From contig JAFIGD010000042.1 in assembly GCA_020831625.1 (NCBI GenBank), positions 1-44,686 of the forward strand: 44,686 nucleotides of DNA, read 5' to 3'. The notes under the pieces are model-generated. The model was not told the origin of the DNA. It searched no databases and saw nothing but the letters and a program-made list of their open reading frames with translations. This document shows, piece by piece, positions 11,075 through 34,702 of this stretch (the stretch's first letter is position 1; each line of letters starts with the position of its first letter). This DNA is from Verrucomicrobiota bacterium. Lineage in GTDB: Bacteria > Verrucomicrobiota > Kiritimatiellia > SS1-B-03-39 > UBA6053. A program made the position numbers and the translations under genes.

Positions 11075-13533
11075 GCGCCTACGGACATTTTGACGACGAG
11101 AACCACGAGTATGTGATTACCCGCCCCGACACCCCGCAGCCCTGGACCAACTACAGCGGCGACCGGCGCTACGGAGCGATCTTCAGTCACCACGCCACGG
11201 GATATTCCTTCACCCGCTCGCCGGCCACGGGCCGGCTGCTGCGGTATTCCCACACCGTCTCTCCCGGGTCGCAGCCGGGGCGCTATTTCTATCTGCGCGA
11301 TACGGAGGACGGCGACTTCTGGAGCGCGTCCTGGCTGCCGGTGGCCAAGCCGCTCGACACGTATTCCACCTCCTGCCGCATGGGCATGGGAACCATGGAC
11401 ATCGAAAGCGCCTACCGGTCGATCCGCACGCGGGCCCGCTATTTTATTCCGCTGGGGCAGGAATTCGAATACTGGATGCTCACGGTGACCAACGACGGCG
11501 ACACGCCCCGGTCGCTGGATGTGTTCAGTTACGCCGAATTCACCTCGGTCTGGGATCTGTTCCACGACGAATTCAACCAGCAGTATGCCAATGCGATTGT
11601 GGCGTGCCGCATGGAGGACGGCATGCTGGCGGGCGGAAATATGGTGAACCTGCCGCAACTGGATTTTTTCGGGGAGCGTCATCAGAGCCGCTGGTGGTAC
11701 ATGTCACAGACCGGAGACGTTTCCCCGCACGCGCATGATTTTGAGCGGGCCGCGTTTTTGGGGCCGGAGGGCCGCTATGCGAACCCGCTGGCGGTGGCCA
11801 GGGGGGCCTGCTCCGGAAGCGAAACCTATGGCGACACCGCCTGCGGGGCGTTTCAAAGCCGGTTGGAGCTGGCACCCGGTGAAAGCAAAACCCTGGTGGT
11901 GCTGCTCGGTGTGGGCAGGGCGGAAACGGTCGGACGCGGGGTGCGCGCGCAATTCGGGTCGGTGGAACGGGCTGAAGCGGAGTGGGAGACCTTGCGCTCT
12001 CATTGGCGGCAGACCCTCGGGGGGATTCGGGTGAACACGCCGGATCCGGCATTCAACAGCATGGTGAATGTGTGGGGAGCGTACAATGCGCTGATGACGT
12101 TTGAATGGAGTCGGTCGTGCAGTTTGGTGTATACGGGGCAGGACCGGGACGGCTACGGATTCCGGGACACGGTGCAGGATGTGCTGGGGGTTCTGCCCGC
12201 CATCCCGGAAAAAGCCAAAGAGAGGCTGTTGCTCATGCTCAGCGGTCAGGAATCGCTTGGCGGGGCCCAACCGGTGGTGGATCCGGTGTTTTTTGAAGCC
12301 GGCAACATGGGCCGGGTGGATCCGGACGAGCAGCGCGCGGATGACTGCCTTTGGTTTTTCAACGCGGTGCCCGCCTATGTGGCGGAGACGGGAGATATGG
12401 ATTTTTATGATCAGGTGGTTCCCTACGCGGACGAAGGGGAGGATACCGTGTATGCCCATTTGCGCCGGGCGTTGGAATTCACACTGGGCCATCGCGGAAC
12501 GCACGGTTTGGCCTGCGGCTTGAAGGCGGACTGGAACGACTGCATCATTCTGGGACGCAAAGGTGAGAGTGTGTTCGTGACCCTTCAACTGCGTCTGGGG
12601 CTGCGGGTGTTTTCTGAAGTGGCCGCCCGGTTGAAACGACGGGCGGATGTGAACTGGGCGAACACCCGCCTTGAGGAGATTGACCGGGCGCTGCAGGAAC
12701 ACGCCTGGGACGGGGAGTGGTTCACCCGGGCGATTACGGAGCGCGGCGATCTGCTGGGTTCGAGTCTTTGCGGGGAGGGGCAAATCTTCCTGAACCCCCA
12801 AAGCTGGGCGGTGCTGAGCGGGGCCGCGACCCCGGAGCAGGCGGTGAAAGCCATGGACCAGGTCGAACAGCAGCTTTCGGATCCATATGGACTGCGCTTG
12901 CATCACCCCAGTTTCCGGAAAACGCCGCGATCCACCGTGCATGCGGTCACCTACCTGCCCGGCACCAAAGAAAACGGAGCCATTTTTCAGCACACCCAGG
13001 GGTGGGCGGTGATGGCGGATTGCATGTTGGGGAACGGGGAACGGGCCTGGCGGCATTTCAGGGCGTATCTTCCGTCGGCCCAAAATGACCGTGCGGACAT
13101 TCGGGAAGTGGAGCCCTACGTCTATGCGCAATGGACACATTCCGGGGTGGACTCCTCCAAGCCCGGGCGCAGCCGGGTCCCCTGGCTCAGCGGGACCGCC
13201 GCCTGGAGCTATTTCGCGGCCACGCAGTATATCCTGGGGCTGCGTCCCGAGGCGGGGGGGCTCCGTATCGATCCCTGTATTTCTTCGGAATGGACATCCT
13301 TCACGATGGAACGGACCTTCCGGGGCAAACGCATCAGAATCGTCGTTGAGAATCCCGACGGATGCCAACACGGTGTCCGCGCGCTGAAACTTGAAACCGG
13401 CGAAGTGATCGAAGATTCGCTTCTGCCGTTGGACCGGATGGTGGACGGCATGACTGTGGTTGTGACCATGGGGGCTGCCGGCGCTCCGGATTTGGTTTCA
13501 GCCGGAAATTCAGAACTTCTCCAATATACCTGA
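11071..13533 (+). CDS. GH94 cellobiose-phosphorylase-like enzyme (third paralogue)
   Basis: An 820-residue GH94 phosphorylase, sister of the preceding gene. The start 'YGHFDDENHEYVITRPDTP', the general acid Asp487 in 'LKADWNDCIILG', and the tail 'SRVPWLSGTAAWSYFAATQY' all match. It differs from its sister in the loop around 'VDPEEQ-type' residues and in the C-terminal strand region, so acceptor choice may have diverged. No signal peptide. It closes the tight run that starts at 5711. The next gene has its own likely promoter, 120 bases further on. Confidence 0.92.
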   Translation: MSAYGHFDDENHEYVITRPDTPQPWTNYSGDRRYGAIFSHHATGYSFTRSPATGRLLRYSHTVSPGSQPGRYFYLRDTEDGDFWSASWLPVAKPLDTYSTSCRMGMGTMDIESAYRSIRTRARYFIPLGQEFEYWMLTVTNDGDTPRSLDVFSYAEFTSVWDLFHDEFNQQYANAIVACRMEDGMLAGGNMVNLPQLDFFGERHQSRWWYMSQTGDVSPHAHDFERAAFLGPEGRYANPLAVARGACSGSETYGDTACGAFQSRLELAPGESKTLVVLLGVGRAETVGRGVRAQFGSVERAEAEWETLRSHWRQTLGGIRVNTPDPAFNSMVNVWGAYNALMTFEWSRSCSLVYTGQDRDGYGFRDTVQDVLGVLPAIPEKAKERLLLMLSGQESLGGAQPVVDPVFFEAGNMGRVDPDEQRADDCLWFFNAVPAYVAETGDMDFYDQVVPYADEGEDTVYAHLRRALEFTLGHRGTHGLACGLKADWNDCIILGRKGESVFVTLQLRLGLRVFSEVAARLKRRADVNWANTRLEEIDRALQEHAWDGEWFTRAITERGDLLGSSLCGEGQIFLNPQSWAVLSGAATPEQAVKAMDQVEQQLSDPYGLRLHHPSFRKTPRSTVHAVTYLPGTKENGAIFQHTQGWAVMADCMLGNGERAWRHFRAYLPSAQNDRADIREVEPYVYAQWTHSGVDSSKPGRSRVPWLSGTAAWSYFAATQYILGLRPEAGGLRIDPCISSEWTSFTMERTFRGKRIRIVVENPDGCQHGVRALKLETGEVIEDSLLPLDRMVDGMTVVVTMGAAGAPDLVSAGNSELLQYT

Positions 13534-20815: not shown

Positions 20816-20955
20816 AGCCGCCGTCGCCGCGAAGAGCGAAGGAGGATCGCCGCATCGGCCGGGGCGTCGGGAGCGACGCGAAGCGTCTTTAGTGCGTGTA
20901 GCGAGTGCAACGAAGCTACCGCTTTGGGGCGAAGGGAGGAATTCAGAAGGGAAGA

Positions 20956-20993
20956 GAACATCGAACATCGAACATAGAACGCCGAACATTGAA
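20956..20993. repeat. Heptamer tandem repeat (GAACATC)
   Basis: Five units of seven bases: GAACATC, GAACATC, GAACATA, GAACGCC, GAACATT, then a partial GAA. It abuts the left end of the direct repeat at 20994. A second heptamer array with a different unit lies at 34753-34808 at the other edge of the island. Confidence 0.8.
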
Positions 20994-21190
20994 GGGGGCA
21001 ACGCGGCGGAGAAGACCCCCTGTGCCCTGCGAATGCGGAGATTCGCGATCCCGTCTCCCCCCCGCCACGGCGATTCGGCGCTCCGGTGGCAAAACGGAAG
21101 CTTGATTTCTCCAGGGATTACGGGATAGAGTAGGGAATGGCCGAAAAGAAACATCCTGTGGCATTCGCCTTGGAGGGCAAGAGGGAGGGG
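20994..21190 (+). repeat. Left direct repeat flanking ietAS
   Basis: These 197 bases match 24809-24996 with only a few substitutions and one short indel region. Shared landmarks include GGGGGCAACGCGGCGGAGAA, CGATTCGGCGCTCCGGTGGC and ATCCTGTGGCATTCGCCTTG. The repeat contains the upstream region and first ~18 codons of the 151-residue protein whose intact copy starts in the right repeat. The two copies bracket the ietAS pair exactly. Confidence 0.9.
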
Positions 21191-21235
21191 GTGGTAAAAA
21201 TCCTGGACACGAGTTGGTTTTCTTTGCTTTTTTGA
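21137..21235 (+). pseudogene. Truncated duplicate of the 151-residue hypothetical gene
   Basis: The frame begins MAEKKHPVAFALEGKREG, matching the intact protein start MAENKHPVAFALEGKRDG at 24943 in all but two positions. After codon 18 the match ends, and the frame runs into unrelated AT-rich sequence with a stop at 21233-21235. It is the stub left by duplication of the repeat segment. Confidence 0.8.
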
Positions 21236-21345
21236 TTCACCATCTGCTGAAACCCGCTCTAAAAATTCATCACCGGGGGTGCGCGATTACAAAGTAGTCC
21301 GCTTTTTGTCGTTAGTTTTATCTTGAAAATAGTGATATTTACGTG

Positions 21346-22512
21346 ATGAATGGACTAATGAGCGATTTGAAAACAGATTTAGTCCACATCGTGAGGTTGG
21401 CCGCAACGGAGCAGACGGAGGATGTGCGGTTGTATGCGGCCAGGATGGTGCGGCGTTACAGGTCGGTAGAACCTGACCTTGCGCTCCAATTGGAGCAATG
21501 TCTGAAAAGCTCGCCTGCACGCGGTCAGAGCCCGTTACGGCGCGCCGAAGCCCCTTTCAGCGCCGCTCCACTTCCGGTGGATGAGGATTCCCGGCTCTCA
21601 TTGCTAAAATCCTTTGAAATAGATGCCAAAGCCGAGGAGCCATTGCTGCCCCCGGAATTGCGTTTGACTCTTTTGCAGCTTGTCGAAGAGCGCAAACGAA
21701 TCCGCGAACTGGGGGCAAAGGGCCTGCAACCGACGCGTTCCGCGATTCTGGTCGGACCTCCGGGTGTGGGCAAAACCATGACCGCCCGTTGGCTGGCCTC
21801 CAGGATGCGCCTGCCGCTCTATGCTTTGGATCTGACGGCGGTGATGAGCAGCTTTCTGGGACGCAGTGGCGGGAACCTGCGCGCCGCTCTGGATTTTGCC
21901 AAGCGGCAATCCTGTGTGTTGCTGCTCGACGAGATCGACGCGGTCGCAAAACGCAGGAGTGATGAAAGCGATGTGGGGGAATTGAAGCGTTTGGTGACGG
22001 TGATGTTGCAAGAGGTGGAGCAATGGCCTTCCTCCGGCCTCCTGCTTGCGGCCACCAATCATCCGGAGTTGATTGATCCAGCTCTCTGGCGCCGCTTTGA
22101 TCTGGTGGTGAATTTCCCCATGCCTGAACCCCATGCGGTCTGGAAAGCGGTCCGTCGTTTCCTGGGTGAGGACTCAGAGCGGTTCGAAGCCTGGCAGGAT
22201 ATTCTGGTAAAGGCGTTCACCGGCGTATCCTTCAGTGATATTGAACGGGAAATCAACCGATTCCGCCGCGCTTTGGTGCTGACAACAACCGCGCCCAAAG
22301 ACCTCGTTGCCGAGCTGGTTCGCCGAAGGGCGGAGGAACTGGATTCCACTTCCCGGATTGACTGGGCGGTGGACCTCGCCCGCGCCGACCTGCTTTCCCA
22401 GCGTGCCGTCTCTGAAATCACAGGCGTCAGCCGTGACACGATCCGGAAACATTTGAAATCGGAAGCAAGTGAGGAAGGTGTGACGAAAACCGGAAAGGTG
22501 GCAGCCGTATGA
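21346..22512 (+). CDS. ietA: AAA+ ATPase, IetA-like partner of a subtilase
   Basis: A ~388-residue AAA ATPase. It has an N-terminal helical domain ('DLVHIVRLAATEQTEDVRLY'), Walker A 'GPPGVGKT' (about 137-144), Walker B 'LLLDEIDA' (about 192-199), sensor-1 'LLAATNHP', and an arginine finger region 'LWRRFDLVVNFPMP'. Its C-terminal helix-turn-helix ('RAVSEITGVSRDTIRKHLK') suggests DNA contact or autoregulation. Its stop overlaps the subtilase start (ATGA). ATPase/subtilase pairs of this type were described as ietA-ietS on Agrobacterium pTiC58, where they act as a plasmid stability and incompatibility module with the ATPase restraining the protease. They have since been reported as antiphage. GTG 21343 and ATG 21358 are alternative starts. 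Confidence 0.85.
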   Translation: MNGLMSDLKTDLVHIVRLAATEQTEDVRLYAARMVRRYRSVEPDLALQLEQCLKSSPARGQSPLRRAEAPFSAAPLPVDEDSRLSLLKSFEIDAKAEEPLLPPELRLTLLQLVEERKRIRELGAKGLQPTRSAILVGPPGVGKTMTARWLASRMRLPLYALDLTAVMSSFLGRSGGNLRAALDFAKRQSCVLLLDEIDAVAKRRSDESDVGELKRLVTVMLQEVEQWPSSGLLLAATNHPELIDPALWRRFDLVVNFPMPEPHAVWKAVRRFLGEDSERFEAWQDILVKAFTGVSFSDIEREINRFRRALVLTTTAPKDLVAELVRRRAEELDSTSRIDWAVDLARADLLSQRAVSEITGVSRDTIRKHLKSEASEEGVTKTGKVAAV

Positions 22513-24131
22513 GTCAGATCAATTTTATCCTTGGCTTCGGGGAGCGTTTGACGGAGCCGGTAAAAGTGAAACCCGGGTTTGGTAAGAAAACCCACCCTTA
22601 CAGCTTGAACGAGGCGAGAGATAGACTCGTGCCCCAATTCGACGCGGTGGCCGCACAGACCGACCGTTTGCCCGCTGATGCCTGTCCATTGGACTACGCG
22701 GTTATGCGTTGGACAATCCATCCGCAATACATCGCAAAATCTTATTTCCCTCTAGCACTTCTGCAAACCATGGGACTGGAGTCCGTCGGCAGCCGTACTG
22801 TGGAGATACAGCCCAGAAAATGGGCCCGCAAGGAAGATGTGAGGTCCACACCAACGACAGAATTGTATGTGGCGGGGAAACGCCGTCATTTACGACAAGT
22901 CCCCGGCCGCTTGGGCCAGATCGAAGAAGGTTCCAAAGCCGCTGAAAATCTTATCGGCCTGGAGAATGTGCAGACTCTCGAGGCCTCGACCCGCAGAAGA
23001 CTTGTGGGAACGGACAATGAGCGATTTATCGAGGTCGGTCTTCATCTGCTGCAGAATGAAAATCCCGATGACGTGAAAAGCGCATTTATCGATTATGCCG
23101 AAAAACATGGATTTATCCCGAAAACGGATCTTTCCTTCACCACAGGGCTTCTTTGGTTTCTCCCGATGGAAAATTGTGACGGCCAATTGGAGAAACTTGC
23201 GCAGTTCACATTAATTCGTGTGGTCCGTCCCGTGCCTCTGTTACGGGGGCTCCGCCCTTTTGTACGGGCGGCGGAAGTCACAGTCCCATGCCGTCTGCCC
23301 GAACTTCCGCCCCTTTCCCACGAACCCAAAGTCGCAATTCTTGATGGTGGGCTGCCACTGCACCACGCCGCCAAAGAATGGGTAAAGAGGTATCATAAAC
23401 TGGACGAACAGGCTCCTGACGATCCGGATGGCTTGGCGCATGGGCTTGCCGTCACCTCCGCCTTTTTGTTTGGGCCGCTCTCGAGCAAACATCAGGCCGC
23501 TCAACCATATGCCCCCGTGGACCACTACCGGGTGCTCGACGGGAATGCGGGCCAGGAGGATCCGTATGAGCTGTACCGGACGCTCGGGCTGGTGGAAACC
23601 GTTTTGCTCAGCCACCAGTATCAATTCCTGAATCTGAGTTTGGGGCCTGACCTGCCCATCGATGACGATGAAATCCACCCTTGGACCGCGGTGATAGACG
23701 ACCAATTGAGTGACGGCCAAACCCTCATGACTGTGGCTGTCGGTAACAACGGGGAGAGGGACCGAGAGACTCGACTTGATCGAATTCAAGTCCCTGCCGA
23801 TGCAGTGAATGCTCTTTCCGTCGGCTCCACGGACGCTACGGGTGCGGACTGGGCCCGTGCAAGCTACAGCGCCACTGGACCCGGTCGCTGCCCGGGTATC
23901 GTAAAGCCCGATCTCATGGCCTTTGGGGGAGGGCCCGAGCAGTACTTCCATGTTCTGCAGGAGGGGGGCAAGCCGTGTCGATGTATCCCACGCAGGGCAC
24001 CAGCTTTGCCTCCCCCTATCTCCTCCGCACGGCGGTGGGGATTCGCGCGCTTTTGGGAAATGAGATCTCACCCCTGGCCATCAAAGCGCTGCTGGTGCAT
24101 ATGGCGGAGCGGAAAGAATATGAGGTTTTAG
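22509..24131 (+). CDS. ietS: IetS-like S8 subtilase, N-terminal part (frame-split)
   Basis: The first 484 or so codons encode a subtilisin-like protease with a ~270-residue N-terminal extension. The catalytic Asp279 lies in 'KVAILDGG', His311 in 'GLAHGLAVTSAFLFG', and the 'LNLSLGPDLP' and 'VGNNGERD' segments include the oxyanion Asn. At 23961-23969 (GAG GGG GGC) the frame leaves the protease sequence. The remaining codons to 24131 read as low-quality out-of-frame sequence and lack the catalytic Ser. As written this product is an inactive protease. A -1 step at the G6 run joins it to the overlapping frame that carries the Ser. Confidence 0.85.
   Translation: MSQINFILGFGERLTEPVKVKPGFGKKTHPYSLNEARDRLVPQFDAVAAQTDRLPADACPLDYAVMRWTIHPQYIAKSYFPLALLQTMGLESVGSRTVEIQPRKWARKEDVRSTPTTELYVAGKRRHLRQVPGRLGQIEEGSKAAENLIGLENVQTLEASTRRRLVGTDNERFIEVGLHLLQNENPDDVKSAFIDYAEKHGFIPKTDLSFTTGLLWFLPMENCDGQLEKLAQFTLIRVVRPVPLLRGLRPFVRAAEVTVPCRLPELPPLSHEPKVAILDGGLPLHHAAKEWVKRYHKLDEQAPDDPDGLAHGLAVTSAFLFGPLSSKHQAAQPYAPVDHYRVLDGNAGQEDPYELYRTLGLVETVLLSHQYQFLNLSLGPDLPIDDDEIHPWTAVIDDQLSDGQTLMTVAVGNNGERDRETRLDRIQVPADAVNALSVGSTDATGADWARASYSATGPGRCPGIVKPDLMAFGGGPEQYFHVLQEGGKPCRCIPRRAPALPPPISSARRWGFARFWEMRSHPWPSKRCWCIWRSGKNMRF
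23962..23969 (+). other. G6 run, possible -1 slippery site or indel in ietS
   Basis: The zero-frame codons are GAG GGG GGC AAG, so the last G of GAG plus the next two codons form G GGG GGC. That fits the X XXY YYZ rule for -1 ribosomal frameshifting. Slipping gives GGG GGG CAA GCC GTG TCG ATG and runs straight into the serine-containing frame. Equally, one G could have been lost by mutation or misread in the assembly. Confidence 0.6.
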
Positions 24132-24727
24132 ACGTGGGGATGGGGAAAATCCCCGAAGACCTCATGACGATCGTCAGTTGTCCGCCGGGTGTGGTTCGGG
24201 TACTTTATCAAGGGGAACTGAACCCGGGGAAATATATTCGTGCCAACATTCCACTGCCCACCACTGGTTTGAAGGGCATGGTCGAGATGAAAGCCACCTT
24301 TTGTTACGCCTGCCCGACGGATGCCCAGGATGCTGCGGCATACACACGGGCGGGGCTGGATATCTATTTCAGGCCTCACGTCGATAAACAGCAGCCGGAG
24401 AAGGAGCACCCGGAAACCAAGTCCTTTTTTTCACGAACCGTCCATGCGACTGAGGCAGAACTTCGAAACGACTTCGGGAAATGGGAAACCGTTCTTCATG
24501 GCAAAAAACGAATGCAAGGCGGGAGTCTTCACAAACCCGTTTTTGACATTCACTATAATGCCCGGGAAATGGGTGCTGCTTCGGGAAGTGCGGCAAAAAT
24601 CCCGTACGCGCTTGTAATCACACTCACAGCCCAAAAACAACCGGAACTTTACAACGAGATTCTTCAAGCTTACTCGCAAATCCTGTCACCTATCCAGCCA
24701 AAAGTGGCTCTTCAAATTCAGACCTGA
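23975..24727 (+). CDS. ietS: IetS-like S8 subtilase, C-terminal part with catalytic Ser
   Basis: This frame continues the subtilase: 'YPTQGTSFASPYLLRTAVG' has the S8 serine motif G-T-S-[FM]-A-x-P, with the Ser codon at 24002. After the protease core (about 45 residues) comes a ~200-residue C-terminal beta-rich domain ('RVLYQGELNPGKYIRANIPLP', 'FCYACPTDAQD', 'YALVITLTAQKQ') typical of this subtilase group. The GTG at 23975 lies inside the protease fold, and no ribosome-binding site precedes it. It is therefore the second half of ietS, not an independent gene. Confidence 0.85.
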   Translation: MSMYPTQGTSFASPYLLRTAVGIRALLGNEISPLAIKALLVHMAERKEYEVLDVGMGKIPEDLMTIVSCPPGVVRVLYQGELNPGKYIRANIPLPTTGLKGMVEMKATFCYACPTDAQDAAAYTRAGLDIYFRPHVDKQQPEKEHPETKSFFSRTVHATEAELRNDFGKWETVLHGKKRMQGGSLHKPVFDIHYNAREMGAASGSAAKIPYALVITLTAQKQPELYNEILQAYSQILSPIQPKVALQIQT

Positions 24728-24808
24728 GCAACATCACGCTCCGACTGTTTGGCCAAGGAACGGAGCAAAGGGGACAGGAGCGCGAATCTCCGTATTCGCC
24801 GGGGCGGA

Positions 24809-24996
24809 GGGGGCAACGCGGCGGAGAAGACCCCCTGTGCCCTGCCGATGCGGCGATCGGCGCTCCATCTCCCCGGCGATTCGGCGCTCCGGTGGCAAAA
24901 CGGAGGCTTGATTTCTCCCGGGATTTCGGGATAGATTACGGGATGGCCGAAAACAAACATCCTGTGGCATTCGCCTTGGAGGGCAAGAGGGACGGG
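24809..24996 (+). repeat. Right direct repeat flanking ietAS
   Basis: The partner of 20994-21190, in the same orientation about 3.8 kb away. It carries the probable leader and first codons of the intact 151-residue gene. Recombination between the copies would delete ietAS and leave one intact downstream gene. Confidence 0.9.
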
Positions 24997-25398
24997 GATA
25001 TCGTCTCCTCCGAAACCGATTTCATGGATGAGGATGAAAATCTGTGGGTGGCTGTGGAGAAGGAGCTTCGGGGGCAGTTGTTTGAGCAGGGAGGCAAAAA
25101 CAAGGCCAATATGCACCTTGCCCTTGAGAATGGCGGCGATTTGATTGTCACCACGACCCAGGGTTTCCTGAATACCTTGAGTGAGGTGAAGGTGTATGAC
25201 ACCGTGCGGGTACGCATCAAGGCCGAGCAGAATCTGCAAAGCGGGGAGTTGCGGAATGCCCAGTTGCTTGACATTCGTCCCGGCAAGCCTGTCTTTGATG
25301 AAGAGGCCTTCAATCGAGCGGTGGAAATCGGCACTCGTGCCTGGGCGGATGTCCCCGATATCGGCCAATGGGTCGCGGAACAGCGGGGGGCGGTGTGA
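24943..25398 (+). CDS. Hypothetical 151-residue protein
   Basis: I start it at ATG 24943, because the same start is preserved in the truncated copy at 21137; the frame is open 17 codons further up inside the repeat. The protein is acidic and mostly beta ('HPVAFALEGKRDGDIVSSET', 'GGDLIVTTTQGFLNTLSEV', 'DTVRVRIKAEQNLQSGELRN') and ends with a helical tail. I do not recognise a family. It follows ietS by 215 bases and converges on the HNH nuclease gene, seven bases apart. It is probably an accessory or cargo gene of the defence island. Confidence 0.7.
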   Translation: MAENKHPVAFALEGKRDGDIVSSETDFMDEDENLWVAVEKELRGQLFEQGGKNKANMHLALENGGDLIVTTTQGFLNTLSEVKVYDTVRVRIKAEQNLQSGELRNAQLLDIRPGKPVFDEEAFNRAVEIGTRAWADVPDIGQWVAEQRGAV

Positions 25399-25404
25399 AA
25401 GCCC

Positions 25405-26004
25405 TTATGTCTGCTCCAATGGAATATCCATGATCATCTTGTCGATATTTTCTTTCAGCATACGAATGGCTTCCCCGCAGTCTGAGAGGCTGACTTCGCG
25501 TTTGAGCTGAATCAGACCATCGCTTTTGTGCAACAAATCCCGGAAATGCCGCCGTTTGATTCGATGCTGCACGAGTGAGGGATCATTTAGGCCCATCACA
25601 AGGATGTGGAGTTTCCCTGCGGGGGTTTTCCCAATCAGGCGACCGGTGCCGGCCTCCTCCACGATATGATCCGGAAATTCGTTCTCCCGGCAGGGATTCA
25701 GGAGACGAAGTCCGGATTTTCTATCTTTCTCTGACGGCCAAAATTCGCCTTTCGATCCGTTGCAATGGCGGGTGGAGAGAAACAGATTGCTGTATCGTTG
25801 ATTCACCTCTTTTTTGAGCGTCGGGTTGAAGTGGTCCACGTCCATGGCATCAATACCACCCGCATCGTCAACATGCAGGTCGGAGTACGCGCACCGATCC
25901 TTGAAATCCCTGCGGAGGGCAGGCAGGGCTTTCTTGCGGTAGTTGTGCCGCTTGATGCTTTTTGGGGCAGTTCCCCGCTTAATGCGTGGTTTCGAGGTAC
26001 TCAT
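25405..26004 (-). CDS. HNH nuclease
   Basis: A 199-residue HNH endonuclease-like protein. The beta-beta-alpha-metal core is visible: 'RCAYSDLH' (about 37-44, in place of the usual CxxC), 'MDVDHFNPTLKK' with the metal/base pair Asp57-His58, 'RYSNLFLSTRHCNGSKGEFWP' with Asn73 and His80. This arrangement is like the TIGR02646/PtuB-type HNH proteins found beside ATPases in Septu and in some retrons. Here no intact SMC-like ATPase or reverse transcriptase accompanies it. It is the last gene of a minus-strand series and overlaps the 144-residue gene by 26 bases. It probably cuts nucleic acid as an effector. Confidence 0.8.
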   Translation of the reverse strand: MSTSKPRIKRGTAPKSIKRHNYRKKALPALRRDFKDRCAYSDLHVDDAGGIDAMDVDHFNPTLKKEVNQRYSNLFLSTRHCNGSKGEFWPSEKDRKSGLRLLNPCRENEFPDHIVEEAGTGRLIGKTPAGKLHILVMGLNDPSLVQHRIKRRHFRDLLHKSDGLIQLKREVSLSDCGEAIRMLKENIDKMIMDIPLEQT

Positions 26005-26413
26005 TCAGAGCGTGGATGAGTTTGTCCGCTTTTTCGAAATGGCGTTTTTCCGCAAGAATTTCCCGGTAACTCCGGTTTGAGTTCAAGGAATACCGCATCC
26101 GTTCCAAGCATTCCAGTTTCCGACGCTCCTCAGCTGTGATGGAGTCCAAAGCGAATTTTCTGGAGAGATCGAGGAATTGACGCTCATCCTGCCGGGTCCA
26201 TTCCGTCTTTTGGCTGGTGGAAAAATCGTAGGTCGAGTTCGTGGCGCTAATCTCGGCGGTGCCGCTCAGGGGCTGTGAGGGAGCCACGCTCATATGGAGG
26301 GGGCGAAAGCGGTTCGGTACGGCGGATTTGCCGGATTCGCCAACCGTCATTTCCACTTTTGGCTTGTTGGGAGGGGCTTGGAGGGTTGCCCCGGCCAAGG
26401 AGTAAATCATCAT
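25979..26413 (-). CDS. Hypothetical 144-residue protein, HNH partner
   Basis: No family recognised. The N-terminal half is Pro/Ser/Thr-rich and probably disordered ('TLQAPPNKPKVEMTVGESGK'). The C-terminal half is strongly helical and charged ('RQDERQFLDLSRKFALDSIT', 'EERRKLECLERMRY', 'EKADKLIHALNEYLETTH'), suggesting a protein-binding coiled region. The start overlaps the upstream gene's stop by four bases and the end overlaps the HNH start, so all three are coupled. A partner or inhibitor of the nuclease is a reasonable guess. Confidence 0.7.
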   Translation of the reverse strand: MMIYSLAGATLQAPPNKPKVEMTVGESGKSAVPNRFRPLHMSVAPSQPLSGTAEISATNSTYDFSTSQKTEWTRQDERQFLDLSRKFALDSITAEERRKLECLERMRYSLNSNRSYREILAEKRHFEKADKLIHALNEYLETTH

Positions 26414-26964
26414 GATTGGCCCTCTTTCGTAAATGGCAGCAGTTCCAGTACCAGAGCGTAATGAGCATTCAAGTTTGCATGAAGGATCGCGACCGGCTCC
26501 GCTTCAATTTTTGTCTGAGTGGAATCATCATTCACCCCGTCCGTGCTGAGAAGCGACATTGTGGAAAAGGTATAGAGCACCAGTTCGCCATCGGCATTGA
26601 CTCGCCCAGCCCGGATGTAGCGAATGCTGTGAACAAATGAAGCACTCTGTGAGGAGGAAATCCTCTTTACTTTGGAGGCGGCCACTTCCTGGTCGTCCAC
26701 GAAGGCCCGGAGCTGTTCGACATAAGGTCCGAAGCTGAAGCTCTGGTTCCGCATCTCCGCTTTGGAGAGTGCGAAAGCGAAGACGTTGTCGCCGATCGAA
26801 GAACCCAGTTTCACAACCACATGGCTGGGAGTCTCCTCCATGGAAAACTGGTCAAACCATACAGCAGGAACACCCTTTGGATTCGGGAAAAGGATGTCGT
26901 AGTGCTTCTCTTTCAATTGAGAGGCTTTTTCAGATTTTTTTGTGGATGATTTTACGCTTGGCAT
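26410..26964 (-). CDS. Hypothetical 184-residue protein upstream of the HNH pair
   Basis: No family recognised. A Lys/Ser-rich N-terminus (MPSVKSSTKKSEKASQLKEK) leads into a mixed alpha/beta domain ('VPAVWFDQFSMEETPSHVVV', 'GDNVFAFALSKAEMRN', 'ILHANLNAHYALVLELLPF'). The tail 'NLNAHYALVLELL' looks like a helix packing against strands. ATG 27009 would add 15 residues; neither start has a clear ribosome-binding site. It overlaps the 144-residue gene by four bases. With the next two genes it forms a compact three-gene module. Confidence 0.7.
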   Translation of the reverse strand: MPSVKSSTKKSEKASQLKEKHYDILFPNPKGVPAVWFDQFSMEETPSHVVVKLGSSIGDNVFAFALSKAEMRNQSFSFGPYVEQLRAFVDDQEVAASKVKRISSSQSASFVHSIRYIRAGRVNADGELVLYTFSTMSLLSTDGVNDDSTQTKIEAEPVAILHANLNAHYALVLELLPFTKEGQS

Positions 26965-27042
26965 GGTGTTTTCAGGCTTATGGCTGGGAACCGTTCTTCT
27001 GAATGGCATAAAAAACCTGTCAGGGTCAAGCTACAAGATACC

Positions 27043-27279
27043 CTAAAACCAGGCTGGCGCAATACCGGATCGTGCGCAGAATAAGGACACGACTTGAGGC
27101 ATTGAGACGGGTTTTTTGCGTTTGCGGGTTTCCTGATAGGCCCGCTCCAGTTGTTTAGCCACAACCGTGTGCCCCTTGCGTTGTTCCTCCTGGATGAGCT
27201 GTTCGCAAAGGCCGTCAAAATTCCCGTCCCCGGCTTCCGCCAGGGCGCGTACACAGCGTTTCATGAGGTCGGCTTTCAT
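27043..27279 (-). CDS. Small protein resembling the N-terminus of an IetA-type AAA ATPase
   Basis: A short helical protein beginning 'MKADLMKRCVRALAEAGDGN' and continuing 'QLIQEEQRKGHTVVAKQLER'. That pattern (M-K-x-D-L, then E-E-x-R-K-G-H-x-x-x-A-x-x-L) is typical of the first ~60 residues of AAA ATPases that pair with subtilases. It then stops at a TGA, with no Walker motifs downstream. It is therefore probably a stub of a second such ATPase, or a stand-alone version of that adaptor domain. The frame is open up to ATG 27318, overlapping the retropepsin gene by 19 bases. Confidence 0.6.
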   Translation of the reverse strand: MKADLMKRCVRALAEAGDGNFDGLCEQLIQEEQRKGHTVVAKQLERAYQETRKRKKPVSMPQVVSLFCARSGIAPAWF

Positions 27280-27299
27280 TTCATTTTTATTTTGAAAGG

Positions 27300-28259
27300 T
27301 TACTGTTCTTTTGGCCAAAGATGGATCATGGCTTTTTGTGATTCGATAAGATAATCATATCCTTCAAATAGGTTCATGCCTATTAAAACAAGGTCGTCAC
27401 GGATGTTTACTGCAACATCGATTGTTCGACTCACGTCACCAATACTGATAGTTCTCTGCACAATAGGAGCAGAGATGGTTCCATTTACTGTTTGAAAGCG
27501 CCGTGTTGGGGCTTTGGACAGGTCTTCAAATCCAGTTGCATTAAACAATTCCCTTGAAATCATTGTGATAGTGGCACCTGTATCGAGTAGAGATTCATTC
27601 ATTATTGCACCGGCAGGGCCTGAAATACCAATAGGGAGTAATAAATGGGAGTTAACAAATCTTCCTTCAACACTAACAGAGTTGTATCTTGAGAACTGTT
27701 GCCCCCGTTCTCGTGCAAGTTGAATTTGGTTTGATGGAAGCGATTTGGTGTTTCTGATGTTGCCTAACGCGACTTCATCCAAAAAAAAGTAACTTTTTCG
27801 ATAGCGATCATAAAATGCTATACTGGTCAAGAAATCACCGCCATATTCCACGACAGGTACGCTCGCAGCAATGAGCCTTTCATAATTTGTACTCCGCAAA
27901 GAAGGCGGCATATAAACCATGAGAAGAAAACTTGTGAATTCCTCAGCTTGGACCTCTATTTGTAAGGCCTCTGGAAACGCTTCTTTGGCGAGGTTTTCAA
28001 GGAGACCTTTAATTGATTGGCCTGGTTGGTTGTGTATCCGATCAAAGACTGTTTCACCAGATGCCAGAAATATTCTTTTATTAAAATCCTCTTCAAGAGC
28101 ATGGATTTTTTGAAGATGCGAACGCTTTAAAGATGTGGACTCAGAAGCAAAAGCCGTTTCAAGCCGATTGGGCTCTACATAGTTGTCACGCATCTGATAC
28201 CCAACGCGGAATATTAGTATGAATGCTAAAAGTAAAGATATGTTTTTTGCCGTCCACAT
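27300..28259 (-). CDS. Membrane-anchored retropepsin-like aspartyl protease
   Basis: A 319-residue protein with an N-terminal membrane anchor (about residues 6-22; Lys5 before it predicts the bulk lies outside the cytoplasm). A ~160-residue middle domain follows, then a retroviral-type aspartyl protease domain (about 200-316). The active-site loop is 'ESLLDTGATITMIS', catalytic Asp226. The flap region 'TVNGTISAPIVQ' and the C-terminal 'LVLIGMNLFEGYDYLIE' (I-G-x-x-L/F) complete the fold. Such single-domain proteases work as dimers; Caulobacter PerP is a periplasmic example. Four bases separate it from the zinc-ribbon gene upstream. Local composition is AT-rich compared with the island's other genes. 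A role in sensing or cleaving a membrane partner is inferred from context. Confidence 0.85.
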   Translation of the reverse strand: MWTAKNISLLLAFILIFRVGYQMRDNYVEPNRLETAFASESTSLKRSHLQKIHALEEDFNKRIFLASGETVFDRIHNQPGQSIKGLLENLAKEAFPEALQIEVQAEEFTSFLLMVYMPPSLRSTNYERLIAASVPVVEYGGDFLTSIAFYDRYRKSYFFLDEVALGNIRNTKSLPSNQIQLARERGQQFSRYNSVSVEGRFVNSHLLLPIGISGPAGAIMNESLLDTGATITMISRELFNATGFEDLSKAPTRRFQTVNGTISAPIVQRTISIGDVSRTIDVAVNIRDDLVLIGMNLFEGYDYLIESQKAMIHLWPKEQ

Positions 28260-28263
28260 AGAC

Positions 28264-29202
28264 TCACCTCATGTCAATCAGCTGCAGGGTTGAAAAATTA
28301 TCTGTTAGTACATTCATATTTTCAGCTGTAGCATAAAAATCCAAAAAGGGATTATTTGACTTAGTACTGAATGATTCAGCCCGGATATTAATCTGATATA
28401 ATAATAATTTTCGCGTTGTGCGTCTGGAATTGTCAGTGAAAACGGTCCTTAAGCAGCCCACCTGAATTTCATAGATTGGGAAATCCCTGCAAACCAGAAA
28501 AACGTCATTTGTCACTCTGGAGATTAATGAAATCACCTCTCTCTTCAATGAGTCAAGTGTCTGGTGCCGGGTACGTGCTGTAGCTTCACCTGCAACCATA
28601 CTCCCCATGTCAAACTCGATATTAAGCAAAAGACCCTGTTGGGTTTGCCGCACGTTTGCTGTGGAACCATTTGGAGCTGCCTCCAATGCAACAGCTCTCA
28701 AAACGTCTTGGATGGATTGGGATGTATCTGAAGCCATAGATTTGAGCCGAAGCTGTGTCCGTTCACGTTGACTCAGCGCAAAACGTTGATCAAATGATGA
28801 TCGCGCACGGAATTCCTCTTGGTAAGCTGTACGTGATTGAGAGGCTAGTTCAGCGGGATTGATATTATTTAACTGCTCTCCAAAATTCTGTTTTATGTTA
28901 AGAAGTTTTTCGTTCAACTCATTCTCAAGAAGCTCTATTCTCTGTTGATGTGAATCCCAAAGTTTCGAGGAATCTCGAGCAATCATATCTGGTACAAAGA
29001 TTGCACCCAACCCCAAAAGGATCCATGTTGCGATCCAAAAAGCTATTGGTATTTTTCGAGCACCGAAGGCCCAAAAACTTGTATTTTTTATTTCTGTGAC
29101 AAAAGCCCGGTGGCAACGCCCGCACCTAGCGTTTAACGGGCTGACATTTGCAGCCAGTCTGTTTTTTGCTCCGCAGTGTGAACATTGAATTATTTGGCTC
29201 AT
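28264..29202 (-). CDS. Zinc-ribbon, single-pass membrane protein with coiled coil
   Basis: A 312-residue protein. An N-terminal zinc ribbon has two CxxC knuckles (Cys7/Cys10 and Cys27/Cys30: 'CSHCGAKNRL', 'CGRCHRAF'). A membrane helix follows at about 51-70, then a coiled-coil stretch ('RIELLENELNEKLLNIKQNF') and a mixed domain. The region 'QSIQDVLRAVALEAAP...QQGLLLNIEFDM' aligns by eye with 'QSIKGLLENLAKEAFP...FTSFLLMVYMPP' of the retropepsin protein next door, so the two seem to share a domain on the same side of the membrane. The start overlaps the nuclease stop by four bases. A signal-relay partner of the protease is the simplest model. Confidence 0.8.
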   Translation of the reverse strand: MSQIIQCSHCGAKNRLAANVSPLNARCGRCHRAFVTEIKNTSFWAFGARKIPIAFWIATWILLGLGAIFVPDMIARDSSKLWDSHQQRIELLENELNEKLLNIKQNFGEQLNNINPAELASQSRTAYQEEFRARSSFDQRFALSQRERTQLRLKSMASDTSQSIQDVLRAVALEAAPNGSTANVRQTQQGLLLNIEFDMGSMVAGEATARTRHQTLDSLKREVISLISRVTNDVFLVCRDFPIYEIQVGCLRTVFTDNSRRTTRKLLLYQINIRAESFSTKSNNPFLDFYATAENMNVLTDNFSTLQLIDMR

Positions 29203-29909
29203 GTGAAATTACATCCAATGATTGGGAAATCAACCAGGCGATGTTTATTTAGCGACTCAATAGCCCAAGCATAGAGATTCCGGTCATGTTCATTATCTGT
29301 AAAGGAGTCGTTTGGGGTAAAATACACCCATTCCAGTGCTTTTACCACACCAGCTGCACTTTCTAACAGCCATTCGCGGATGTCATCTTCAAGTTGTGGA
29401 TCATCCAGCGAAAATCCTGATTGGTTCGGATAAAAATTTGACTTTGAATAAACCTCTTGGGCTGTAATTCTATAAATTTTCCAATTGATGTGCGCCAGAA
29501 GCTCGTCGCGGCCCCGATCTTTTATTATATCATGTTGTTTCCCATCCACTTCCAGACCAATTCTCAAACAAGGATTTGCGAAATCAATAAAATAGTTAAA
29601 AACAGGATATTGTGGGTAAAGAACAGCGTGGGAGTTTCTTAAGCTCGTCCAGACTTCGTTTTCGCACTCGTTCATGTGTTCAACCCAGTCTAATATTGGA
29701 AAGTGAGAGTAGGGTCCTTTTCCTTGTGCGATGATTATAGGCAAGTATTCCATGTAAATTTGTCGGATAAACCCCCATTTGTCAGGCATTTCTGTGAGTT
29801 CCAAAAACCGTAGGCTCAGGAAACGATCAATTAAGAATTGTTCTGGGGAGATTGAAAGTTGAGTATCCATACGTATGGCCAATTGTCTTCGAGTTATATA
29901 TTCAAACAC
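29199..29909 (-). CDS. PD-(D/E)XK nuclease (DUF559/Vsr-like fold)
   Basis: A 236-residue protein whose central part fits the DUF559/very-short-patch-repair nuclease fold. 'YPQYPVFNYFIDFA' has the strand with Asp109, 'RIGLEVDGKQHD' carries Glu120/Asp122/Lys124 and His126, and 'RDELLAHINWKIYRITAQEV' is the following helix and strand. A ~75-residue helical N-terminus and a ~75-residue C-terminus are unassigned. A GTG start at 29909 overlaps the stop of the upstream ISP fragment (29902-29904); ATG 29870 is an alternative. It is the first gene of a tight three-gene cassette with the zinc-ribbon and retropepsin proteins. It is predicted to cut DNA, and its link to a protease suggests regulated activation. 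Confidence 0.8.
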   Translation of the reverse strand: MFEYITRRQLAIRMDTQLSISPEQFLIDRFLSLRFLELTEMPDKWGFIRQIYMEYLPIIIAQGKGPYSHFPILDWVEHMNECENEVWTSLRNSHAVLYPQYPVFNYFIDFANPCLRIGLEVDGKQHDIIKDRGRDELLAHINWKIYRITAQEVYSKSNFYPNQSGFSLDDPQLEDDIREWLLESAAGVVKALEWVYFTPNDSFTDNEHDRNLYAWAIESLNKHRLVDFPIIGCNFT

Positions 29910-30625
29910 ACAACCCCGGCAACCCGCCCACCACTTTCATGGTTTCCAGACTGACGGTGATGATGCGTTGGAGGAGTTCTAAGGGGTATTTGGGGTTTTG
30001 GAGGGTTTCGGTGGCGTAGTGGTTGGCGTCGTTGGTGATGTGGCTGGATTTGTCGGTGGTGACGGACTGGCGTTCCATGACCCATTCGATGGCGGGTTTG
30101 CCGTTGACGATGTAGGTGTAGGCTTCGAGGGGGATGTCGCGAAGGGTGATGTGGGGATTGTAGAGGATGGTGGTCTTGTCGGCAAGGGTTTTTCCGGTCT
30201 CAGGGTCTTTGGTTTTGCCGAAGCGCATTTTGGTGACGCGGTAGTCGGACGGCTGTAGGTCTTTGAGGGCCTTTTTGCCGGTGTCGAGGGTGACGGGGTG
30301 GGGTTGGACGCTTTCGTAGTTGAGGTGCAGGTCGGCGAGTTGGTGTCCGGCGCGGGAGAAGGTCCAGAAGGCTTCGGCGCCTTTGACGGCGGGGATGCGG
30401 GGCAGCTCTTTGCTGAGGTTGTCGGCGTAGCGGGCGCGGTAGTCGGGCGAGTGGAGGAGTCCGTAGATGTAGTAGAAGAGGTCTTCTTTGCTGATCGTCT
30501 CGCCGGGATAGGCTTTCCGGAAGTGCGCCAGGCCCGCGTCGCTGATTCCGTCCCTGCGTTTGTAGCCGGTTTCGGTCCGGGTGGCTTGGGTGCCGCTGAA
30601 GAGGTCTTCTATGTAACATATTACT
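29902..30625 (-). pseudogene. Type ISP restriction-modification enzyme, C-terminal fragment
   Basis: Reading minus from about 30625 the frame gives 'DLFSGTQATRTETGYKRRDG', 'SKEDLFYYIYGLLHSPDYRA', 'YADNLSKELPRIP', 'GHQLADLHLNYESVQP', 'PLEAYTYIVNGKPAIEWVME' and ends 'VSLETMKVVGGLPGLCV'. This is the C-terminal target-recognition region of single-chain Type ISP enzymes. No start codon belongs to it: the frame enters from AT-rich sequence just after the Type II endonuclease stop. The N-terminal part of the same kind of enzyme ends at 33030, so both are halves of one gene whose ~800-codon middle is missing. Ordinary GC-rich codon use resumes at about 30605. Confidence 0.85.
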
Positions 30626-30653
30626 GAAACTGATCTGAAAATGTTTAAAAAGG

Positions 30654-31730
30654 TTAAGCTGATTTTAAAGCTGGCTCCATAAAACAGTCCAAAAATTCTT
30701 CAGTTATGCCTTTAATTTTTCTTTTTGAACAGAGTGCATATAACTCTTCAACAGCAGAATAAGAAAAGAATTTTGGATCTAAATCTTTAAATTGTGGTGC
30801 TTGACACTCACGTAAAACAAAATCTCTATCTGAGTCTGGTGCTACGATTACCCAACGTGAAGGAAACGGTGGTATCAAATCTTTAAACTTTTGCATTCTG
30901 AGAAGTCCGCTTCTAACACCAGTTGAGTGTTCAACCTCCATGACCGCAGGCATGAGCCTCCCGTTTTTAAACCAAATGCAGTCAATCAGCAGAGCGGCTT
31001 GGATACCTTCATCAAAAGCTTGCAAAAGTCTTTCACCTCGTAAATCAGAAATTGCACCAGGATATTCACAAATTCTTTTGTTTTGGTACAACAACCCTTT
31101 ATCATTTTGGGCAATCCATGTGCGATAGCCGAGTTGGCCGCCAATAAGGAATAATGCAACTTGAATTTGGGCATGACGACGAACCATCTCTATGTCAAGC
31201 CCTGGGGAGGGTGCTTCCGAAAATCCAACAGATTCATAAACAATTTCAGTTGTTGGAACTTCTGATATAACAATATCGACCTCCCGCTCGGTAATCACGC
31301 CTTCTTCGTGCGGATCAGTAGGGCACCAAATTAAATGCTTATGGCCTCTTTTAATCGTTTCTCTTTCTCTGATCAACTCTACCCTTCCAGGATAACAATA
31401 GTAAAATTGTGACGTATGTGCCAAAAGCGCTTCTAATGATGACCGTGTGTTGTAACTTGCACCCAATATTCGATCCAAATTAAAGGGAACGTTTTCGCGT
31501 ATTCCATTTGCTACGCGCCAAAGCATCTCCATTGACATTGTTTGAGTTTTAGCTGATGCGTATGTTTCTCCTTTAGAAGGTCTAAAACGCCTTATTCTGA
31601 CAGGGCCTTCTGGTCGAGTCACACCTTCTACAACTACAAGGGTTTCTGTGCTTGAGTTAATATAGGGGTATTGGTGGTCTTTCGGTAGTTTATCAATGAA
31701 ACTTACTAAATTTGAAGCAGATAATCTCAT
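30654..31730 (-). CDS. Type II restriction endonuclease, partner of the cytosine methyltransferase
   Basis: A 358-residue protein directly after the methyltransferase gene (TAATG overlap at 31728-31732), so it is almost certainly the cognate endonuclease. A PD-(D/E)XK core is likely at 'LLIDCIWFKNGRLMPAVMEVEHSTGVRS': Asp250, then Glu265/Glu267 on the next strand, with 'STGVRSGLLRM' forming the following helix. The N-terminal ~180 residues have no clear family; 'ATIKRGHKHLIWCPTD'-like segments suggest DNA binding. I cannot name the recognition site. The gene is AT-rich, like its partner and unlike the interrupted host gene, pointing to transfer. Confidence 0.8.
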   Translation of the reverse strand: MRLSASNLVSFIDKLPKDHQYPYINSSTETLVVVEGVTRPEGPVRIRRFRPSKGETYASAKTQTMSMEMLWRVANGIRENVPFNLDRILGASYNTRSSLEALLAHTSQFYYCYPGRVELIRERETIKRGHKHLIWCPTDPHEEGVITEREVDIVISEVPTTEIVYESVGFSEAPSPGLDIEMVRRHAQIQVALFLIGGQLGYRTWIAQNDKGLLYQNKRICEYPGAISDLRGERLLQAFDEGIQAALLIDCIWFKNGRLMPAVMEVEHSTGVRSGLLRMQKFKDLIPPFPSRWVIVAPDSDRDFVLRECQAPQFKDLDPKFFSYSAVEELYALCSKRKIKGITEEFLDCFMEPALKSA

Positions 31731-32935
31731 TAGTGCGCTCCTGTTGTCGATATAAAACTTGAAATGGATTCTGCAATTGCTTTGGAAAGCATATACGGGA
31801 CACCATTTCCTACGGTTTTAAACATTGCTGAAAGTGGTATGGTTGGCGGTACAATAAATTCTTTTGGCAAGCTTTGGATGGCTAATGTTTCAGCAACATT
31901 TAATCGTCTTGCGTGATACGGATGCAAATGAACTTCGTTATTACCATACGCAGCAGTTGGGGAGTATCGCCACCTATGAAGCCTTTTGTAAGATTTTTTC
32001 TTGTCATCACCTTCCTGAATTACCTGGAATTTTTTCAATCCAGCGCGTGGAGTAAAACAATGAATAAAGTTTGGATGATTTTCTACACTGTTTTTTTGAA
32101 ACCAATACTCCACAGTAAGTTCAATCGGTAAATTGTCCGGTTGGCTTAGCCGACTACCTTCGGCAAAAGGTGTTTGCTCAGGCCATGGCAAATCTTTTAA
32201 TGTTTGTGAATCATTTCTTTCAGTTAGCGACCACGGGAACTGGGCTATACTTTGACTGGTTATATTGTTTAAGCGATCTGACTTTTGGTTAAATCCAATC
32301 AGAAGTATTCTCTCTCGGTCTTGAGGTGCCCCATACCAAAGGGCATTTGTCAATCTTTCAGTGAGTAAATAACCTGCATTCTCAAGTTTAACTTTCATTT
32401 CTTCAAAAAACTGTCTGTGTTTGACTGTTCTATATAAACCTTTTACATTTTCGAAAAGGAAGAAGTCAGGTTTTAACAAACAGACTAATTCAATATAGGT
32501 GTTGGTTAGCTTTCCGTTTTCACCGTGCTGGCCTTTGTTTTTTCCGCCTACTGAAAAATCGGGGCATGGTGGGCCTCCTATGAAGCCAACTGGCTGTCCT
32601 TTGCGTTTTTCTATTTCTACCAAATTCTTTAGTTTTTTAAGAAATTTTCCTTCAAGCATCCATTCAATATCAGCAAGACTGTATCCATAAGTTGGTTCTG
32701 CAATGCCCATGTTAATTCTTGAAAAACGATATGTTTGCATAAATGGGAGGTTGTATTCGTTTACAAAGCGAATTGCATATTTTCCTTGTGTTTCAAAGCC
32801 TAGATCTAGAAACCCTGCGCCTGAAAAAAATGAGAAGATCCCAATTTTGTCATCTGTCTGGTATAAATCAAAAGTTGGTTTTTCACACACCTGAAATGAT
32901 TCAGGTTCTAAATTGCATTCAATATAATTTATCAT
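31730..32935 (-). CDS. DNA (cytosine-5) methyltransferase, Type II
   Basis: A 401-residue m5C methyltransferase with the motifs in normal order. Motif I is 'FSFFSGAGFLDLGFE' (AdoMet binding, about 34-48) and motif IV 'GGPPCPDFSVGG' with nucleophile Cys124. Motif VI is 'FFLFENVKGL' with Glu162 and motif VIII 'APQDRERILLIGF'. A target-recognition region spans about 225-330. Motif IX is 'ARRLNVAETLAIQSLP' and motif X 'MFKTVGNGVPYML'. It transfers a methyl group to C5 of cytosine in the site cut by its partner. It precedes the endonuclease gene, which allows protection before cutting. Composition is AT-rich. AT-rich sequence just upstream of the start (a TATAAAAT-like stretch near 32967) is a plausible promoter. 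Confidence 0.95.
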   Translation of the reverse strand: MINYIECNLEPESFQVCEKPTFDLYQTDDKIGIFSFFSGAGFLDLGFETQGKYAIRFVNEYNLPFMQTYRFSRINMGIAEPTYGYSLADIEWMLEGKFLKKLKNLVEIEKRKGQPVGFIGGPPCPDFSVGGKNKGQHGENGKLTNTYIELVCLLKPDFFLFENVKGLYRTVKHRQFFEEMKVKLENAGYLLTERLTNALWYGAPQDRERILLIGFNQKSDRLNNITSQSIAQFPWSLTERNDSQTLKDLPWPEQTPFAEGSRLSQPDNLPIELTVEYWFQKNSVENHPNFIHCFTPRAGLKKFQVIQEGDDKKKSYKRLHRWRYSPTAAYGNNEVHLHPYHARRLNVAETLAIQSLPKEFIVPPTIPLSAMFKTVGNGVPYMLSKAIAESISSFISTTGAH

Positions 32936-32977
32936 TTTTGTTTTAATCCATTTAATGGTTCATTTTATAAAAAAATC

Positions 32978-34702
32978 TTATGCGGCATTTCGTCGCAAGT
33001 CCAGATTATCGCGGGTATTTTTGGGTGTTCTCAGGTTGGAGAGGATGCGGCAGGTGTTGGGGGGCGGGTCGGCTTTGAGCCAGGTGAGTTTGGCGTCTTT
33101 TTGGGTGGCGTTCATGGAGCCGTCGACGTGTTCGGCTTCGCAGACGAGGGGGTGTTGGAGCTGGGTCTCGTTGTCGTTGTAGGCTTCGACGACGGCCTGG
33201 AACATGGCGGCGATTTCTTTGGAGCTGACGCGGTGGGCGCCGGTTTTGCCGGAGCCCGGTTCGATGACCTGGCAGAAGGCGACGGCGCGGCGCATGGGGT
33301 GGGCGGCGTCCTCGACTTCGCCGCGGATGCCGTGTTTGCCGAGGGCTTTCCAGCAGCCGATGATGCGGGCGGCGTCGTCGACTTTGAGCTGGTTGTCGTC
33401 GTCGGCGAGGAGTTCCTGGAGGCGGTCGCTGACGTGTTGGCTGTCGATGGTGAGGACGATGACTTTGTAGTCGGTGAGGAGGCCGAGGTGGACGGCTTCG
33501 GAGAAGGTGATGACGTGGAGCTGTTCCCCGAAGAGGTCGGGGTTGTCCATGGAGCAGAGGGTGATGTTGTCGCGTTCGGCGGTGGCCTGGGCGAGGGGGT
33601 TGTAGATGCGCGGGGTGGCGGTCATGTAGAGGCGCCGGACGGCGCGGAGGAAGTCGGGGTCGTGGACGCGGACGAAGTTGCTTTCGGCCTGGTCGTCGAA
33701 GGTGGCGCCGGTGGTGCGGTGGGCTTCGTCGCAGATGACGAGGTCGAAGGGGGGGAGGCCGTGGAGGTGCTGGGCTTCGCTGAGGACCTGGATGGAGTGG
33801 TAGGTGGAGAAGACCACGCTCATGTGGCGGGGATCGTGGCGCTTTTGCATCTCGGCGGCGAGGCGTTTGGCGTCGGTGGTGGCGGGATAGCGGAGTTCGT
33901 GCACGAAGGTGGCGACCACGTCTTCGTCGCGTTTGCGCTTTTTGCCGACTTCGTCGTCGGAGCAGACGGCGAAGGCGTGGAGGGGGGTGGCACTTTCCTG
34001 GGTCCATTCGGTGAGGGACTGGGAGAGGAGGGCGAGGCTGGGGACGAGAAAGACGACGCGTTTGCCGGGTCCGGCGAGTTCTTCGGCGATTTTGAGGGAG
34101 GTGAAGGTTTTGCCAGTGCCGCAGGCCATGATGAGTTTGCCGCGGTCGGCGGTTTTGAGGCCGCGGAGGACGGCGTTTTTGGCGGAGGTCTGGTGGGGAC
34201 GGAGGGTTTTCTTTGCTTTGAGGACGGGCGGGGCGCCGGGCTGGAAGCGGGACCAGTCGATTTGGCTGTTTTCGAGGTCGTGGAGATCGATTTTGGTGAC
34301 GGGCGGCTGTTGTCCGGCGAGGGCCTGCTCGGCGTTGTCGGTCCAGGCGGCGGCGGTGGTGACGATGACGCGATGGGTGAAGGGTTTCTGACCGGAGGCG
34401 GTGAAGAAGCTGTCGATGTCGCTTTTTTGGACGCGGTGGTCTTCGGCGTAGAATTTGCACTGGATAGCGTGGGTTTCGGCGGTGCCGCGGGTACGGGCAA
34501 CGAGGTCGATGCCGGTGTCTTTGGCGGTGAAGCCGTTTTCGCGGGCCCAGTCGGTGTAGGTCCAGACCTGTTCGTAGAGGTCGGCGTAGGTGGCCTCGTG
34601 GCGGAGGTAGGCGAGGATGAGTTCCTCGAAATAGGTGCCTTTTTCGCGTTCGGTGAGGGAGGCGGCGCGGTAGGTGTGGAGGAGCTGTTGCAGGGGTGAC
34701 AT
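32978..34702 (-). pseudogene. Type ISP restriction-modification enzyme, N-terminal fragment
   Basis: The frame begins at ATG 34702 and encodes an Mrr-like nuclease domain ('KDTGIDLVAR', then 'AIQCKFYAEDHR': Asp66, Gln81, Lys83) and a superfamily 2 helicase. Motif I is 'MACGTGKT' (about 192-199), motif II 'DEAH' (324-327) and motif III 'TATP' (about 358). Native sequence ends at 'TCRILSN', just before helicase motifs V and VI. The last ~17 codons (TPKNTRDNLDLRRNAA) are foreign read-through into the inserted segment. Helicase motifs V/VI and the adenine methyltransferase domain are absent, so the enzyme cannot be functional. The C-terminal end survives at 29902-30625. Confidence 0.88.

Follow-up and report, generated by a model that had tools for sequence, protein, structure and literature searches.

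The nearest described systems to the locus analysed here are the trypsin- and caspase-nuclease pairs of 2025, in which Tuck et al. proved that nucleases are controlled by proteases, of trypsin-like and caspase (canu) types, in bacterial defence (PMC12799240). Our locus lies on contig JAFIGD010000042.1 of a Verrucomicrobiota bacterium (positions 1–44,686; hereafter the window, to which all coordinates refer) and comprises three minus-strand genes, encoding a nuclease, a zinc-ribbon (ZR) membrane protein and a retropepsin. These genes had been described as closely coupled, and the ORF coordinates agree: the nuclease gene (29199–29909 with a GTG start) and the ZR gene (28264–29202) share a 4-base ATGA overlap, and the protease gene (27300–28259) follows the ZR gene after a gap of 4 bases. 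All three ORFs are intact, whereas several neighbouring defence genes are broken. The AT-richness reported for the three genes was also confirmed. Their GC content (0.41–0.43) and GC3 (0.35–0.38) are alike, against 0.50–0.64 and 0.57–0.84, respectively, in the flanking genes, with the exception of a type II restriction–modification (RM) pair upstream that is itself AT-rich (GC 0.38–0.40). These three genes are probably a new defence cassette.

The first gene encodes the DUF559/Vsr-like nuclease that the preliminary description had predicted. Its product matches DUF559 (PF04480) with E = 6e-9 and 36.1 bits, above the Pfam gathering score of 20.6, and MTES_1575 with E = 9e-7. The catalytic core (residues 78–156, 29442–29678; E83, D109, E120, D122, Q125 and H126) has the D..ExDG..H arrangement, and residues invariant in the family are kept. 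The gene had been said to start by overlapping the stop of a restriction gene. An 8-bp overlap does arise if the GTG at 29909 is used, but M14 lines up with the starts of three homologues (L090, L091 and L092), and the start was therefore placed at the ATG at 29870, the most likely position (gene 29199–29870), which leaves a 31-bp gap beyond the stop of the neighbour. That neighbour, moreover, encodes only the C-terminal part of a type ISP enzyme, the gene for which is broken. In the alignment, the nuclease has the same length as its partner-free relatives and no obvious additional gate segment.

The second gene was expected to encode a zinc-ribbon single-pass protein, an expectation that was met in its main features. 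Four cysteines in two CxxC pairs (C7, C10, C27 and C30; 29113–29184) and one strong transmembrane segment (about residues 51–71, 28990–29052; Kyte–Doolittle 2.11) are present, but the match to the zinc-ribbon profiles MJ0042/zinc_ribbon_4-5 (E = 0.009, 16.4 bits) falls below the cut-off of 30.3 bits. Hydropathy and charge, with a positive flank N-terminal to the transmembrane segment, suggest that the zinc ribbon is cytosolic and that the remainder lies outside the membrane. This probably periplasmic part (28264–28989) consists of a coiled coil and an alpha-beta-beta-alpha-beta region in a low-confidence AlphaFold model, which has a long helix at residues 53–113, and it contains two cysteines (C238 and C250) that fit a periplasmic location. 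The models of the ZR protein and the protease are poor (pLDDT of 49 and 36, respectively). We also considered that these two proteins might be paralogues with a common ectodomain; their likeness is suggestive by eye and in secondary structure, but shuffled-sequence scores gave only z of about 2–3 and the relationship was rejected.

The third gene (27300–28259) encodes a protein with a C-terminal retropepsin domain (27366–27593) that matches PF13975 (8e-10) and PF13650 and scores above the Pfam gathering threshold. It has the hallmarks of clan AA, with an intact D226-T-G-A site (catalytic Asp226 codon at 27582–27584) and LIGM at 292 as the glycine-containing strand, and reaches 30.4 bits against TIGR02281 (clan_AA_DTGA), below the curated cut-off of 57.95. 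Its closest solved relative is the bacterial retropepsin ApRick/APRc (81 aligned residues, E = 4e-4). Of the membrane-anchored aspartyl protease in the preliminary description, the protease thus stands, and the anchoring is probable but not certain because the N-terminal hydrophobic run (residues 6–18, 28206–28244) is short, at about 13 residues with a Kyte–Doolittle maximum of 1.56. This segment may serve either as a weak anchor or as a signal peptide, and the probable location of the protease domain is outside the inner membrane. The PADLOC candidate PDC-M08B, which has a domain of 127 aa, was rejected as the identity of this protein: it matches the protease domain only (E = 0.004) and neither of the other two genes, and is named in none of the literature searched. 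The match probably reflects just the common retropepsin fold.

The strongest support for a defence role comes from comparison with related genomes. In the congener G109, homology with the window extends to 29914, where the type ISP gene (79% amino acid identity) has its 3′ end. About 2.65 kb of other genes come next, and the two sequences match again from 27279, where an IetA-like remnant has its ATG (93% nucleotide identity over 106 nt, near the end of the G109 contig). The interval between these points in the window, 27280–29913, holds exactly the three genes and nothing else. In G109 (L237, 1436–4043), the slot is filled by a four-gene candidate defence cargo that encodes a 129-aa protein without a family match, an AAA ATPase, a DUF3226/TOPRIM protein and an HNH protein; the ATPase (AbiLi/PDC-M38-like) and the DUF3226/TOPRIM protein match the candidate system PDC-M38. 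Beyond the same ISP end (84% amino acid identity), the congener G018 carries PARIS-like genes for an ATPase and an AriB-like protein. G072 retains a remnant of ISP with a deletion, after which come genes for a Ppl-like SMC ATPase and an AlbA-type protein. The location among defence genes that is looked for in anti-phage systems was thus found, in that all three related genomes compared have defence genes, known or candidate, in the slot; its left edge is seen in all three and its right edge in one (G109). The slot edges showed no convincing direct repeats or recombination sites. These boundaries, together with the other cargo in relatives, argue that the three genes arrived together, as a unit, at a site where defence genes are exchanged. 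The trio is probably a single horizontally acquired cargo, exchanged by recombination into the slot behind the type ISP 3′ end. Whatever the mechanism of the cassette, a slot anchored on the ISP remnant gives exact boundaries for cloning and is a place in which to seek further undescribed systems in related genomes.

The surroundings bear out the claim that the cassette sits in a defence island, which contains an IetAS pair, a PtuB-like HNH gene, parts of a type ISP gene and a type II RM pair. The left edge of the slot is the minus-strand 3′ remnant of the ISP gene (29902–30614; PF18135, 2e-20; 79–84% amino acid identity in the congeners), and its 5′ remnant, also on the minus strand, lies at 32978–34702 (profile positions 1–560 of 1646; PDLC03597, 1e-238). 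The middle, several hundred residues, is gone, and a type II REase and C5-MTase pair on the same strand (30654–32935; PDLC03534, 3e-121; PDLC03355, 2e-154) is in its place. The type ISP gene (29902–34702; L236 and L238) is a hot spot for replacement: in G018 (L236) another C5-MTase and an HTH gene occupy its middle, and in G072 (L238) the middle is deleted. The right edge of the slot is formed by an N-terminal remnant of IetA (27043–27279, minus strand; PDLC04232, 8e-6); the ORF there (27043–27318) matches just the first 60 residues of the IetA profiles and is apparently the remnant of a second ietA. In the IetAS pair (21343–24727), ietS falls into two frames that overlap (22509–24131 and 23975–24727), as the result of either a real frameshift or a sequencing error. 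Dispersed repeat-like intergenic sequences (20847–21191 and 24773–25040) flank the IetAS part and are common to G018 (L236, 7276–7947). The island also carries the PtuB-like HNH gene (25405–26004) and several broken defence genes. Two uncharacterized genes (25979–26413 and 26410–27009) precede the HNH gene, overlapping it or each other, and 25405–27009 could be another three-gene defence unit.

Recurrence of the gene order across genomes had been proposed as a check, and the trio has so far not been found a second time. All ORFs of 202 loci were scanned with the ZR protein and the protease, and matches were obtained in the window's own sequence only. In searches that find mainly close relatives, neither protein had relatives in 288 genomes of the class, plasmids, phages or viral contigs, the protease had none in 388 genomes of the phylum, and the ZR protein had none in 109 genomes of the phylum of L090 or in 84,980 species genomes. 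Viral scans with the ZR protein, the protease and a protease–ApRick alignment gave no match. No second trio or ZR–protease pair came to light in these searches. Because they reach mainly close relatives and were run without a positive control, they show that close relatives of the two proteins are absent, and not that remote ones are. Weak genome matches for the ZR protein or nuclease in G106, G231 and G229 were discarded as an unrelated ATPase and a generic DUF559 gene.

Distant DUF559 hits were used to build a profile, with which relatives of the nuclease were found. Those in viral contigs and phages (L010–L016) are full-length or nearly so, with 29–38% identity, and in L010–L014 they lie directly behind a DnaB-type helicase gene, in phage replication modules. 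Full-length relatives with 33–45% identity occur in four Bacteroidota genomes (L090–L093), that in L093 being frameshifted. In L091 (Flavobacteriales; 3226–4610), GCGTTAGG stands before each of two successive genes (2 matches versus 0.14 expected); we take these repeats to be attC cores, and the nuclease relative looks to be inside an integron gene-cassette array. In L092 (Terrimonas; 6028–11344), a conjugative element carries the relative, and about 50 bp further on follows a STAND-type gene (1524 aa) with weak matches to Avs4, LmuA and PDC-M54; the two possibly form a defence pair. The neighbours of the nuclease relatives include no zinc-ribbon membrane gene and no retropepsin of the trio type; an unrelated, longer, secreted retropepsin-type protein is encoded about 1.1 kb from the relative in L090. 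Homologues that occur singly and away from defence genes had been named as evidence against a three-gene system. This pattern was found in part, for the nuclease only, whose relatives stand alone except for the Terrimonas gene beside its STAND-type neighbour.

PerP of Caulobacter is a clan AA protease, and PodJ is a single-pass protein with a cytosolic N terminus and a coiled coil. In a published review, PerP is named as the first of the proteases that act on the membrane protein PodJ (PMC10202637), which lends support to an analogous, predicted working of the trio. The ZR protein would be bitopic, with a cytosolic zinc ribbon, a single transmembrane helix, a coiled coil and a periplasmic domain, and the retropepsin would be anchored on the periplasmic side, where dimerization would be needed for activity. 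Disturbance of the membrane or envelope by infection might lead the retropepsin to cut or act on the ZR ectodomain, in the fashion of PerP on PodJ. The change in the ectodomain would be transmitted across the membrane and reach the zinc ribbon, which would then free or activate the cytosolic DUF559 nuclease against incoming or host DNA. In our preferred reading, which we hold tentatively and at not quite an even chance, the trio is one acquired cargo, most likely an envelope-linked anti-phage (or anti-plasmid) system that works in this PerP/PodJ-like way. The specific proposal that a retropepsin outside or across the inner membrane acts on a bitopic ZR sensor to switch on the nuclease, which would make a new, site-1-protease-like class of immunity, we consider unlikely. 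The preferred reading draws on the edges of the slot and the different defence cargo that the three relatives carry in it, the equal GC3 of the trio unlike that of its flanks, the tight coupling, and the intact ORFs and catalytic motifs beside broken neighbours. The charge, transmembrane segment and ectodomain cysteines of the ZR protein, the bacterial retropepsin as closest solved protease relative, and the precedent of protease-controlled nucleases in defence (PMC12799240) also favour it. Counting against it are the lack of a second trio or ZR–protease pair in the searches, the full-length nuclease relatives of equal length that have no such partners, and the weak likeness of the two ectodomains together with the poor AlphaFold models.

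The main rival is that the cargo combines two separate units: a DUF559 nuclease that acts alone, as a mobile or homing-like gene or a single-gene defence, and an independent ZR–retropepsin pair. We regard this as a sizeable possibility, if rather doubtful: solitary relatives in Bacteroidota, in an integron array and in phage replication modules, none with a ZR or retropepsin neighbour of the trio kind, are what it predicts, but the ATGA overlap joins the nuclease gene to the ZR gene, GC3 is equal in all three, and just these three lie between the slot edges. It is improbable that the nuclease is a pro-enzyme that the retropepsin clips directly, as trypsin-like proteases do in nuclease–protease Hachiman and AVAST and caspases do in canu. 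The principle is proven in bacterial defence (PMC12799240), and the nuclease gene is upstream of the protease gene in the trio as well; however, neither trio enzyme belongs to those families, and direct clipping is made less likely by the probable placement of the protease outside and the nuclease inside the membrane and by the nuclease having no segment beyond those of partner-free relatives. Just as improbable is that the ZR–retropepsin pair forms an envelope module for routine maintenance or regulation and is carried in a defence island by chance. Secreted retropepsins are indeed widespread in the class (at E ≤ 0.001, 102 of 288 genomes have at least one, and 95 have one that scores above the family cut-off), but the resident ones inspected are longer, secreted and no closer to the trio protease, the source genome has the cargo copy only, and defence-type genes fill the slot of all three relatives.

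The preliminary description had held that no described system has this combination of genes, and we find the same: the trio matches none among the PADLOC models, which gave no match to the nuclease or ZR protein at E ≤ 1, or in the open literature, where no retropepsin-based anti-phage system was found (subscription papers being mostly outside the reach of the search). The protease domain of ApRick/APRc of Rickettsia (PDB 5c9b, 5c9d and 5c9f) is alike, but its N-terminal part and neighbourhood differ. Stand-alone DUF559 nucleases of phages (L010–L016) and Bacteroidota (L090–L093), at 29–45% identity, are without a ZR or protease partner. PerP–PodJ resembles the trio in combining a retropepsin-type protease with a single-pass protein that has a cytosolic N terminus and a coiled coil; it differs in having no nuclease, no role in defence and another gene arrangement, and just the protease domain is alike. 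The pairs of Tuck et al. (Hachiman/AVAST/Lamassu/DRT and canu; PMC12799240) resemble the trio in lying in a defence locus, with the nuclease gene upstream of that for the protease. The trio is not a member of that group, because both families differ: an MBL-fold nuclease is paired there with a trypsin-like or caspase protease, whereas here a DUF559/MTES_1575 nuclease accompanies a retropepsin (PF13975/PF13650), and a separate membrane protein is present without a sensor ATPase or helicase fusion. The trio is probably one well-bounded, new defence cargo with an attractive predicted mechanism. If that mechanism is true, an aspartic protease of retrovirus type and envelope signalling would enter bacterial immunity, beside the trypsin- and caspase-activated nucleases.
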